From contig JAFCDT010000008.1 of the NCBI GenBank assembly GCA_017609525.1, forward strand, positions 1-38,025: a stretch of DNA of 38,025 bases, read 5' to 3'. The notes beneath the pieces are model-generated. The model saw nothing but the letters and a program-made list of their open reading frames with translations, was not told the DNA's origin and made no database searches. Origin of the DNA: Candidatus Woesearchaeota archaeon (GTDB lineage Archaea > Nanobdellota > Nanobdellia > SCGC-AAA011-G17 > JACPNG01). The number at the start of each line of letters is the position of its first letter. Position 1 is the stretch's first letter. Position numbers and translations under genes: made by a program. Positions 22,207-27,770 of this stretch are shown in pieces.

Positions 22207-23317
22207 ATGTATAATGTTGAGAGAATTAGAAAAGATTTTGAAGTTCTTAATAAGAATGTTGTTTATCTGGATTCTGCTTGTATGGCTCTTAAACCTAATC
22301 AGTAAGAGAGTTACATCAGAAGTTGAAGAATCCAGGAAGACCATTAAGAAATTTTTGAATGCTAAAAAAGGTGAGTTAATATTTACTAAAAATACTACTG
22401 AGAGTATTAATTTGGTTGCTAATTCTTTAGGTTTTCAAAAAGGAGAAATTGTTGTGAGCAGTGATAGAGAACATAATTCTAATTTATTGCCATGGCAAAT
22501 ATTGGAAAAGAAAAAAGGAATTAAAAGAAGAATTGTTGATGAAAAACAAGACCACTCTTTTGATTTAGATGATTTTAATGAAAAGGTTAAGGGTGCCAGA
22601 CTGGTTTCTGTTGTTCACACTTCTAATTTAGATGGGTATACATTGCCTGTTAAGGATATTATAAAAATAGCCCATGAAAATGATGCTTTGGTTTTGTTAG
22701 ATGGAGCACAAAGTACACCACATAAAGAAATCAATCTCAAAAAATTAGATGCAGATTTCTTTGCTTTTTCTGGACATAAAATGCTAGGACCTACTGGGGT
22801 TGGTGGGTTGTATGGAAAGAAAGAGTTGTTAGAAAAGCTAGAACCTTTTATTGTTGGAGGAGATACTGTTACTGAAACAACATATGATAAACAAGAATTT
22901 GCAGATGTTCCTCATAGATTTGAGGCTGGTTTGCAACATTATGCTGGAATAATTGGTTTGGGTGAGGCTGTTAAATATCTAATGAGGTTGGGATTGAAAA
23001 ATATTGAGAAGCACGAAATTAAATTACAGAGATTTATTGTTGATAATCTGAATAATGAAAAGATTGAAAGGATTGGTTTCAAAGGTGAAACCGGAATATT
23101 TAATTTTAATATTAGAAAGATGAGCCCGCACAACGTGGCAATGATATTGGATGAAACAGAGAATATTATGATTAGAAGTGGAGCCCATTGTGTACATAGC
23201 TGGTTTAATAAATATAACCTACAAGGCAGCGCAAGGGCTTCCTTATACTTGTATAATAACAAAGAGGACTGTGAGAAGTTTATTAAAGGTGTGAATAATA
23301 TTATAAAGCTGGGCTAG
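22207..23317 (+). pseudogene. Cysteine desulfurase-like class V aminotransferase (SufS/Csd), frame-disrupted with apparent internal deletion
   Basis: Frame A from 22207: MYNVERIRKDFEVLNKNVVYLDSACMALKPNQ* (stop 22303-22305); homology continues in the other frame from ~22298: ISKRVTSEVEESRKTIKKFLNAKKGELIFTKNTTESINLVANSLG...; PLP Lys 'FSGHKMLGPTGVG' and Cys 'RSGAHCVHSW' intact. Confidence 0.85.
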
Positions 23318-23342
23318 TTTTGTAAATTAAAAAGAGGTGAAT

Positions 23343-24827
23343 ATGAAACTAAGTATTTTGTTTGGTGGTAAGGCTGGTTTGGGCCCCAATATTCTGGGAA
23401 GCATTTTAGGCGAGGCATTAGTTAAGCAAGGCTATTATGTTTTTTATTCCAGAGATTATCAATCTTTAATTAGGGGGGGACATAACTTTAATGTTCTAAC
23501 TTTTTCTGATAAACCTGTTTATAGTAATGAAACTAAAATTGATATTTTGGTCGCTTTGGATGAAAACACAGTAAGAATTCATAAAAAAGATCTGAAAAAA
23601 CGAGCAGAGATTATTAAAGGAAGTCATGTGAATATGTATTTTGCTGGGGCTTTGTTTAAGGTTCTTGGTTTGGATTTTAAGATTTTGAAAAACAGACTAA
23701 AAAGTTTAAGAAATTTTGAAGAAAATCTGAAAAGTGCTAAAAAAGGTTATATTGAAGAAAAGGAGAGGTATGAGATAAAGAGATTAAAAAGAAAAAAATT
23801 AACTTTTATGAATGGAACCCAAGGAATAGCACATGGGGCAATTAGGTCTGGTTTAGATGTTTACTATGCTTATCCTATGACTCCTGCAACTCCTTTGTTG
23901 GGTATTCTTGCTCAAAAACAAATTGAGCATAATTATTTGGTTTTGGAACCAGAAAATGAAATTGCAGTTATCAATGCAGCGGTTGGTTCTGCGATTACTG
24001 GTGCGAAGAGTATGCTGGGAACATCTGGGGGAGGTTTTGATTTAATGACAGAAACGTTGAGTATGTGCGGGATGGTAGGCATACCTTTAGTGATTTATCT
24101 AGCTCAGAGACCGGGTCCTGGTACAGGGGTCCCAACTTACACAAGACAAGGTGATTTAAATGATGCGAGACATGCCGGACATGGGGAATTTCCTAGAATT
24201 GTTTTGGCTCCGGGAAATCCAATTGAGGCAGCAGAGTTAACTAGCGAGGCTTTTTATTTTTCTCAAAAATATAAAATTCCCTGTATTGTTTTGAGTGATA
24301 AACATTTAGCAGAAAGTTTTTACACTTTTACTAGGAAACCTAGGATAAAAAGATCTAATAAATCAACAAAGTTGATAAAGTACACTAGTTATGAGCATTT
24401 TAAAAAAGGAGTGTCTACAGAGGATGCAAAGAAAGTAAGGAAAGGAGTTGAAGAAAGATTAAAGAAAAATAAGAAAATTAAAAAAGAGGCTGAAAAATTC
24501 AGGATGTTTAAAATTTATGGCAATAAAAAAAGTAAAAATTTAATTATAGGTTGGGGATCAACGAAAGGGGCAATTTTAGATGCAATCAAGGGACTTAACT
24601 GTAAATTTTTACAAGTTTTGTATATTGAACCTTTTTCAATTAAGATTAAAAAGCATTTAAAGAGAGCAAAAAATGTAGTGGTTGTTGAGAATAATTCTAC
24701 TTCACAATTATCAGATGTTATTGCTGAGAAAACTGGTTTTTTAATTAAAAATAAAATTTTGAAATATGATGCAAGGCCGTTTTTTGGTGAAGAATTGAAT
24801 AAATTAATCAGGAAAAAGTTAAAATGA
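23343..24827 (+). CDS. korA: 2-oxoacid:ferredoxin oxidoreductase, fused gamma-alpha subunit (KorA-like)
   Basis: 'FGGKAGLGPNILGSILGEALVKQGYYVFYSRDYQSLIRGGHNF', 'MNGTQGIAHGAIRSGLDVYYAYPMTPATPLL', 'QRPGPGTGVPTYTRQGDL'; SD GAGGTG before ATG 23343 (track start 23337 is GTG). Confidence 0.9.
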   Translation: MKLSILFGGKAGLGPNILGSILGEALVKQGYYVFYSRDYQSLIRGGHNFNVLTFSDKPVYSNETKIDILVALDENTVRIHKKDLKKRAEIIKGSHVNMYFAGALFKVLGLDFKILKNRLKSLRNFEENLKSAKKGYIEEKERYEIKRLKRKKLTFMNGTQGIAHGAIRSGLDVYYAYPMTPATPLLGILAQKQIEHNYLVLEPENEIAVINAAVGSAITGAKSMLGTSGGGFDLMTETLSMCGMVGIPLVIYLAQRPGPGTGVPTYTRQGDLNDARHAGHGEFPRIVLAPGNPIEAAELTSEAFYFSQKYKIPCIVLSDKHLAESFYTFTRKPRIKRSNKSTKLIKYTSYEHFKKGVSTEDAKKVRKGVEERLKKNKKIKKEAEKFRMFKIYGNKKSKNLIIGWGSTKGAILDAIKGLNCKFLQVLYIEPFSIKIKKHLKRAKNVVVVENNSTSQLSDVIAEKTGFLIKNKILKYDARPFFGEELNKLIRKKLK

Positions 24828-25639
24828 AAAAATTAGATACAGGAGAAAAATCAACTTGGTGTCCTGGATGTCCCAACTCCCTTATTTTAGAAGGAGTTAA
24901 GCAAGCGCTTGCTAAAAGAACCAATGTAGCAATTGTTTCTGGCATTGGATGTCATGCCAAGATTTTTGATTATCTTAATCTGCCTGGTTTGAATAGCATA
25001 CATGGAAGGGTTTTGCCAACTTGTTTAGGTCTTAAAATAGGAAATCCTAATCTAAATGTTGTTGGTTTTTCAGGTGATGGGGATGCTTACCAAGAAGGAA
25101 TAAGCCATTTAGTCCATGCAGCGAGGTATAATTCTGATTTTAAGTACCTAGTTCATAATAACCAGGTTTTTGCATTGACTGTTGGTCAGCCTACTGCAAC
25201 TACTGAGATTGGTTTTAAGGACAAGACAACTATGCCTTTTGGTTCTAAGATTGTGCCATTAAATCCAATAAAATTGATGCTGGCTTGTGGTGCTAGTTTT
25301 GTTGCCAGAGTGTTTGCTGATATAAAACAGGTGAGATGGATTCTAAATGAGGCATTTAAGCATAAAGGTTTTGCTTTTGTTGAGATAATACAACCGTGTA
25401 TTACTTTTCATCCAGACACTGGTTATAAAGAGAAAACATATTCTTTAGAGAAAACCGGACATAATAAGAGAGATTTAAAAGCAGCTTTTAGAAAGGCAGA
25501 TGAATTTGATTATAATACTGTGAAGAAGATCCCTTTAGGAATATTTTACCAGGAAAAAAGAGAAACTTTTGAAGAGAAATATCCCCAATTGGTTAAATTA
25601 AAGAAAAAGGAGATTTCTTGGAGAAACATAAAGAGGTAA
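24824..25639 (+). CDS. korB: 2-oxoacid:ferredoxin oxidoreductase beta subunit (KorB-like, TPP-binding)
   Basis: 'TWCPGCPNSLILEGVKQAL', 'GIGCHAKIFDYLNLPGLNSIHGRVLPTCLGLKIGNPNLNVVGFSGDGDAY'. Confidence 0.93.
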   Translation: MKKLDTGEKSTWCPGCPNSLILEGVKQALAKRTNVAIVSGIGCHAKIFDYLNLPGLNSIHGRVLPTCLGLKIGNPNLNVVGFSGDGDAYQEGISHLVHAARYNSDFKYLVHNNQVFALTVGQPTATTEIGFKDKTTMPFGSKIVPLNPIKLMLACGASFVARVFADIKQVRWILNEAFKHKGFAFVEIIQPCITFHPDTGYKEKTYSLEKTGHNKRDLKAAFRKADEFDYNTVKKIPLGIFYQEKRETFEEKYPQLVKLKKKEISWRNIKR

Positions 25640-25693
25640 TATTATTTTAAAGAGCAGTTAATTTTATAAAGCTTTAATCTAGATTTTTCTTTT

Positions 25694-26587
25694 ATGTTTG
25701 ATGTTATTATTGTTGGTGCCGGACCTGCAGGTTTGAGTGCTTGTCTAGAAGCTAAAAAAAATAATTTGAATTACTTGTGTTTAGAGCAGAATAAAATAGC
25801 AAATACAATTAGAAATTACCCCAAAGGCAAAAAGATACAGAAAGATTATATGGGGGTTAGTTTAGAAAAAGAAGGAGAATTATTTTTTGAAGAAGTTAGT
25901 AGAGAAGAACTTATTGAGAAATGGGAAAGGATAGTTCATGAGGAAAAATTAAATATTAAAGAAAACGATAATGTGCTGGATATTAAAAAAGAAGATGAAA
26001 CCTTTAAGGTGATTGCCAATTCTGGCGAATATAAAACAAAAAATGTTATTTTGGCTATTGGAAGGATGTCAAGCCCTAGAAAACTGGAGGTTGTTGGAGA
26101 GGATCAAAATAATGTTTTCTATAGATTAGATGATCCTGGAGAATACAGTGATAAAAATATTTTAGTTGTAGGAGGAGGAAATAGTGCTATTGAAGCTGCC
26201 TTATTATTAAGTAAAAAGAATAAAGTTACTTTAAGTTATAGGAAATCAGAGCTTTTTAGATTAACTAATGAAAATCAAGAGGGAATAGCTAAAAATGAGA
26301 ATGTTAATGTTATTTTTGAATCTAATGTAGAAGAGATCAATGGTAAAGAAGTAAGTTTAAATATTAAAGGCGAGATAAAAAAATTAGAATTTGACTATGT
26401 TTTTATATTGGTTGGATTTAACTTACCTACAGAGTTCCTGGACAGAATTGGAGTTGAGGTTGGTGAGGGCATAGAAAGCAATATAAAAGGGATATACTTA
26501 ATAGGTGATATAAAGGAAGTTAAGAATATTACTCATGCTATAAATGATGGAAAAAAAGCAATCGAGGTGCTTAAGAATGGATTATAA
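25694..26587 (+). CDS. Thioredoxin reductase/FNR-like FAD-NAD(P) oxidoreductase without CxxC
   Basis: 'DVIIVGAGPAGLSACLEAKK', 'NILVVGGGNSAIEAALLLS', C-terminal 'GIYLIGDI'; no redox CxxC. Confidence 0.87.
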   Translation: MFDVIIVGAGPAGLSACLEAKKNNLNYLCLEQNKIANTIRNYPKGKKIQKDYMGVSLEKEGELFFEEVSREELIEKWERIVHEEKLNIKENDNVLDIKKEDETFKVIANSGEYKTKNVILAIGRMSSPRKLEVVGEDQNNVFYRLDDPGEYSDKNILVVGGGNSAIEAALLLSKKNKVTLSYRKSELFRLTNENQEGIAKNENVNVIFESNVEEINGKEVSLNIKGEIKKLEFDYVFILVGFNLPTEFLDRIGVEVGEGIESNIKGIYLIGDIKEVKNITHAINDGKKAIEVLKNGL

Positions 26588-27770
26588 TAAAGAAGCAATA
26601 AAAATGCATAAGGAAAAAAAAGGCAAAATTGAAGTAGTGAGTAAGGTCGAATTAAAAAATAAAGATGATATGTCTATTGCTTATACTCCTGGAGTAGCAG
26701 AACCTTGCAGAGAAATCGCTAAAGATAAGAAGAAAGTTTATGATTATACTGCTAAGGGCAATATGGTTGCTGTTGTTAGTGATGGTTCAGCAGTATTGGG
26801 CTTGGGAAATATTGGAGCTGAGGCGGCATTGCCTGTTATGGAAGGCAAAGCAATACTGTTTAAGGAATTTGGTAATGTAGATGCATTTCCAATTTGTTTG
26901 GATACTCAGGATACAGAAGAGATAATTAAGGCTGTTAAGCAAATTGCGCCTGTTTTTGGTGGTATTAATCTGGAAGATATTTCTGCTCCCAGATGCTTTG
27001 AGATTGAGGAGAGACTGAAGAAAGAGTTGGATATTCCTGTTTTTCATGATGATCAACATGGTACTGCAATAGTTGTTTTAGCTGGATTGATAAATGCCTT
27101 GAAATTAACCGGTAAGAAAAAAGAAGAGATTAAGGTTGTTGTTTCTGGCGCCGGGGCTGCTGGCATAGCAGTGACTAAGATCTTGCTTAGTTATGGTGTT
27201 GAAAATATTGTGTTAACTGACAGCAAGGGGGCCATTTATAGTTGTAGGGATCATTTGAATCTTACTAAGAAGGAAATTTCTTTTGTTACAAACTCTAAAT
27301 GCGGACATACCGAGTTTCAGAATAGTGAAAAATGTAAGACCTGCATTAGAGGAAGTTTAAAAGATGCATTGAAAGGAAGTGATGTTTTTATTGGACTAAG
27401 TGTTGCTGGGATCGTTGATAAGGATATGGTCAAGAGCATGAACAAAGACCCCATTATTTTTGCTATGGCCAATCCTACTCCGGAAATTATGCCTGATGAG
27501 GCCAAGGAAGCTGGAGCCAAGATAATAGCCACAGGTAGAAGTGATTTTCCTAATCAGATAAACAATGTTTTGGCTTTCCCTAATATTTTTAGAGGAGCAC
27601 TAGATGCTGGGGCTAAGGATATAACAGAAGAGATGAAGGTTAAATCTGCAGAGGCTTTAGCTGATTCTGTTGATGATTTAAGTGAGGAAAAGATAATTCC
27701 AAATGTGTTTGACAAGGGTTATAGGGAAACAATAATAAAAGCTGTGAAGGATTGTGTTAAAGAAACTTAG
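26577..27770 (+). CDS. NAD(P)-dependent malic enzyme
   Basis: '[15 protein letters not shown]', '[27 protein letters not shown]', '[20 protein letters not shown]', '[10 protein letters not shown]'; ATG 26577 after SD GAGGTG (track start 26544 lies inside the upstream gene). Confidence 0.93.

Follow-up and report, generated by a model that had tools for sequence, protein, structure and literature searches.

The window analysed here, 38,025 bases in length, is an entire contig (C56) of a fragmented Woesearchaeota metagenome bin (G000; 785 kb in 66 contigs, 86% complete). It contains a SufS-type cysteine desulfurase gene that is split between two reading frames, with the following features:

22207..22305, + strand: N-terminal piece of the SufS-type cysteine desulfurase, 32 codons, ending in the stop TAA at 22303-22305.
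22297..22303, + strand: junction at which 71 nt are missing (22 codons and a change of frame), with AATCAG at 22297-22302.
22214..23317, + strand: mechanical open reading frame, consisting of an out-of-frame start and then the desulfurase body in the correct frame from ~22298.
22778..22780, + strand: codon of the PLP-binding lysine (SGHK), placed by sequence and by alignment to solved SufS chains.
23189..23191, + strand: codon of the catalytic cysteine (GAHC), placed in the same way.

Translation from the ATG at 22207 gives a product of 32 amino acids, MYNVERIRKDFEVLNKNVVYLDSACMALKPNQ, for which the profile models of CsdA and SufS give matches at their N-termini (E 1.6e-5 to 3.5e-4). This N-terminus (22207-22302) and the body of the enzyme (~22298 on) lie in different frames, and the body is free of stop codons through 23317. 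In the open reading frame at 22214-23317, similarity to the family begins no earlier than residue 29-31, with alignments that start at model position 38 of Pfam Aminotran_5 (E=1.3e-101) and at model position 56 of TIGR01979. The first residues of this frame look hydrophobic because the conserved SufS N-terminus is translated there out of frame. Its TIGR01979 score of 364 bits falls below the curated cut-off of 475.1 bits; so does the score of 408 bits for the unbroken homologue from the nearest relative, in which a contig end cuts off the first residues. Further downstream, an SGHK-type motif and an R-S/A-G-x-H-C loop, here RSGAHC, align with those of relatives and of solved SufS chains, and by this homology the PLP lysine and the catalytic cysteine are judged intact. 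Thus, the preliminary description was right to see a desulfurase broken by a deletion or frameshift, with a first frame that stops at 22303, a nonsense hydrophobic start to the longer frame, and intact catalytic residues downstream. The gene shares the fold family, both catalytic residues and gene-long homology with the SufS/CsdA-type (group II) cysteine desulfurases (TIGR01979; solved chains such as 5j8q).

What the contig lacks can be measured against relatives. In the nearest of these, a second fragmented bin (G007), the homologue (contig C33, L004, JAFCDD010000017.1; 75% identical) is unbroken across the site and reads KPKQ-VIEKVNEYYKEYPGCGGRSYHK-IGKR. These 22 residues are present in all 15 aligned rows of the subfamily (14 distinct, L014 and L038 having identical sequence), none of which shows the arrangement found in the window. 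On the DNA of the relative the loss amounts to 71 nt, which is 2 mod 3 and therefore out of frame; the earlier estimate of ~20-25 missing amino acids agrees with this count. Among the missing residues is an arginine that falls in the same alignment column as the VHR arginine in solved SufS chains, and from this alignment and the E. coli sequence we take it to be R56 of E. coli SufS. The contig is thus without the α3-α4 loop, at which the aligned relatives have a GGRSxH-type sequence, although the organism itself probably possesses the loop and its conserved arginine. In E. coli SufS this loop is mobile, and its R56 makes contact with the substrate sulfur (PMC11408855). Were the loss real, no normal enzyme could be made from either of the two frames. 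Quite apart from the break, the Woesearchaeota SufS-like subfamily (L004-L015, L038-L040) differs from canonical SufS in having DSACM and a loop of Cys-x-GRSxH type (GGRSxH) where the canonical enzyme has DSAAT and VHRGxH.

The bin also differs from a complete SUF system, as the SufB/SufD core domain (PF01458) had no match in the 86% complete G000. A search for a second intact cysteine desulfurase in the genome, which the preliminary description had proposed, did find one: an intact IscS (C44:6700-7803) adjoins IscU (C44:7877-8254). No second intact copy of the SufS-type gene was found in the bin. Given the IscS-IscU pair and the lack of a SufB/SufD match, a real loss of SufS would in principle be tolerable.

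The break could have arisen in the genome or in the assembly, and frame-breaking losses elsewhere in the same bins bear on the choice. Comparison of stretches of G000 and G007 (~164 gene matches at ≥50% identity, with ~38,000 residues aligned each way) yielded a set of frame-changing losses, mostly of 35-80 nt, and few gains. Among them are a 73-nt out-of-frame loss in G000 contig C20 (L103:11291-11931), in a gene that we read as Rrp41, an archaeal exosome subunit, and a 50-nt out-of-frame loss in a single-copy gene of G007 that we read as threonyl-tRNA synthetase (ThrRS). A living cell should not be without either. Rrp41 is the sole exosome subunit detected in G000, where no second copy was found, and it is unbroken in all six other genomes that had it in that search; ThrRS is unbroken in the seven other genomes searched. 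When two well-assembled relatives, G008 (2 contigs) and G010 (9 contigs), were compared with each other, no credible frame-breaking loss of similar size was seen.

Tandem duplications follow the bins in the same manner. In 581 kb of G000 there are 10 exact two-copy repeats with a period of 25-114, and in 8 of these the period is not divisible by 3; 333 kb of G007 contain 8, of which 7 have such a period. There are none in 199 kb of G008 and one, in frame, in 200 kb of G010. One of those in G000, an exact 44-nt duplication on contig C39, breaks the frame of leucyl-tRNA synthetase (LeuRS). In this gene the assembly contradicts itself directly, as two contigs of the bin, C39 (L162:1-462) and C64 (L184:6091-6412), overlap in it by 114 identical bases. 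C64 skips 96 nt that C39 holds, a multiple of 3, with the cut exactly at the 114-nt shared contig end, and beyond the gap it continues as a 97%-identical variant up to its own end. Exact 114-nt overlaps also occur in 8 other contig pairs, mostly end to end. The overlap length looks like k-1, with a largest k-mer near 115, and both the 44-nt duplication in C39 and the 96-nt loss in C64 have the look of joining errors made where strain variants branch. Thus, the contradiction between these two contigs indicates that a loss of such a size does arise in this assembly, at a strain-variant branch and by a blunt join. Other work has assembled DPANN bins by IDBA-UD at maxk 115 (PMC8204110), and we infer that bin G000 was assembled in this way. 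Errors of local assembly, and duplicates left unmerged where sequences are joined, have been described for short-read metagenome assemblies (PMC7111523). Those errors and the lesions reported here have in common wrong or missing sequence at joins, leftover duplicates, broken proteins, and exact overlaps between contig ends whose length is dictated by the k-mer size; the SufS junction differs in that no second contig covers it and shows the error directly.

Based upon these observations, we consider it very probable that the 71-nt loss is an assembly join that omits sequence, the cause at this particular junction being read from the rest of the bin. The cell would carry an intact SufS-like cysteine desulfurase gene. 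In a de Bruijn assembly of short reads, its largest k being about 115, strain variants would have led to branch ends being joined wrongly, and the draft contig would then unite two assembled pieces with 71 nt left out between them, which would shift the frame and drop 22 codons. We favour this reading because like lesions occur throughout the bin, are frame-random, fall in genes that are expected to be essential, and in one case are contradicted by a second contig. The missing 71-nt piece was not found on another contig of the bin (among contigs > ~3 kb). The preliminary description had left three causes open, namely a recent lesion, a subpopulation variant and an assembly error; the last is now strongly favoured, and the deletion at a microhomology that headed that description does not stand as the leading account.

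Alternatively, the deletion could be real and recent, either fixed or confined to a subpopulation, having arisen by recombination or slippage at the short AATCAG homology and left a pseudogene in a cell whose sulfur is supplied by IscS-IscU. Several observations are compatible with such an event. The junction allows up to 6 nt of homology, which fits a real deletion too; the remaining frame is undamaged, as a recent event predicts; and the intact IscS and IscU, together with the absence of a SufB/SufD match, would make the loss bearable. In addition, SufS genes with internal frame-changing losses occur in two further Woesearchaeota bins (G037:C32, L048 ~1150; G048:C33, L049 ~1280), and malic enzyme is split, with a change of frame and a gap of ~20-35 codons, in two more (G074:C15 ~26310; G087:C46 ~874). 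In all, 3 of ~65 SufS copies are broken, as is malic enzyme in 2 of 21 genomes, whereas no break was found among ~150 listed FtsZ copies of the order, so that some breaks could reflect dispensability. It is mainly this contrast that leads us to keep a small share of probability for a real deletion. However, in this bin and in its relative like lesions also strike genes that are expected to be essential, and a second contig of the bin contradicts one such loss; this makes a real deletion improbable here. The SufS and malic enzyme cases might hint that cysteine desulfurase genes are especially prone to breaks, but this idea was rejected, as Rrp41, LeuRS and ThrRS are broken too. A search of the literature on Woesearchaeota pseudogenes returned nothing useful.

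The role proposed for AATCAG deserves separate consideration. The preliminary description had placed the deletion between two AATCAG repeats, and the hexamer at 22297-22302 does allow two readings, NQ (the end of KPNQ) in the frame of the N-terminus and (K)IS in that of the body. Yet the contig has a single copy at the site, the second having been deduced from the reading frame, and the two corresponding sites in the relative read AAACAA and AGATTG, so that AATCAG is found at neither. Alignment with the relative leaves ~6 nt within which the breakpoint could lie. Other junctions in these bins, among them those in Rrp41 and SMC, are sharp and have hardly any homology or none, and the best resolved are blunt joins without microhomology. 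A microhomology-mediated deletion pseudogene would share with this locus a frame-breaking loss and a possible short sequence common to both sides of the junction, but the second repeat cannot be observed, and elsewhere in the bin losses of a comparable kind have blunt joins and affect genes expected to be essential. Because the loss that can be checked, between C39 and C64, and the best-resolved junctions are blunt, an AATCAG mechanism is possible, yet unnecessary and unproven.

Two further readings carry little weight. The 367-residue product of the frame at 22214 could be a genuine, expressed short or membrane-anchored form that does something different from ordinary cysteine desulfuration, since the ATG-started frame is open to 23317; we regard this as extremely unlikely, as its first 28 residues are the conserved SufS N-terminus read out of frame, it is without the α3-α4 loop whose arginine contacts the substrate sulfur, and no relative has such a form. 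Programmed bypass or frameshifting was rejected as well, since the DNA itself does not contain the 22 codons.

With an assembly join as the favoured cause, the biological importance of the SufS break is small, and its value lies in a practical warning. Where a bin is fragmented and built from short reads, a gene that seems split or turned into a pseudogene by a loss of ~35-100 nt can owe this to an assembly join, and reports that DPANN archaea have lost genes need to be verified with reads. Even without reads, such bins can be flagged quickly by two signs, namely exact tandem duplications that are random with respect to frame and contig-end overlaps of constant length.

The surroundings of the gene also vary between the two bins. 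The window at 22214-27770 and G007 (L047:1-3225) have in common the gene order desulfurase, thioredoxin-reductase-like FAD protein and malic enzyme; two 2-oxoacid:ferredoxin oxidoreductase genes (23343-25639) lie between the desulfurase and the FAD protein in the window only. A truncation of the KorA gene downstream of the desulfurase was considered and discarded, as KorA in the closest relatives is equally long.
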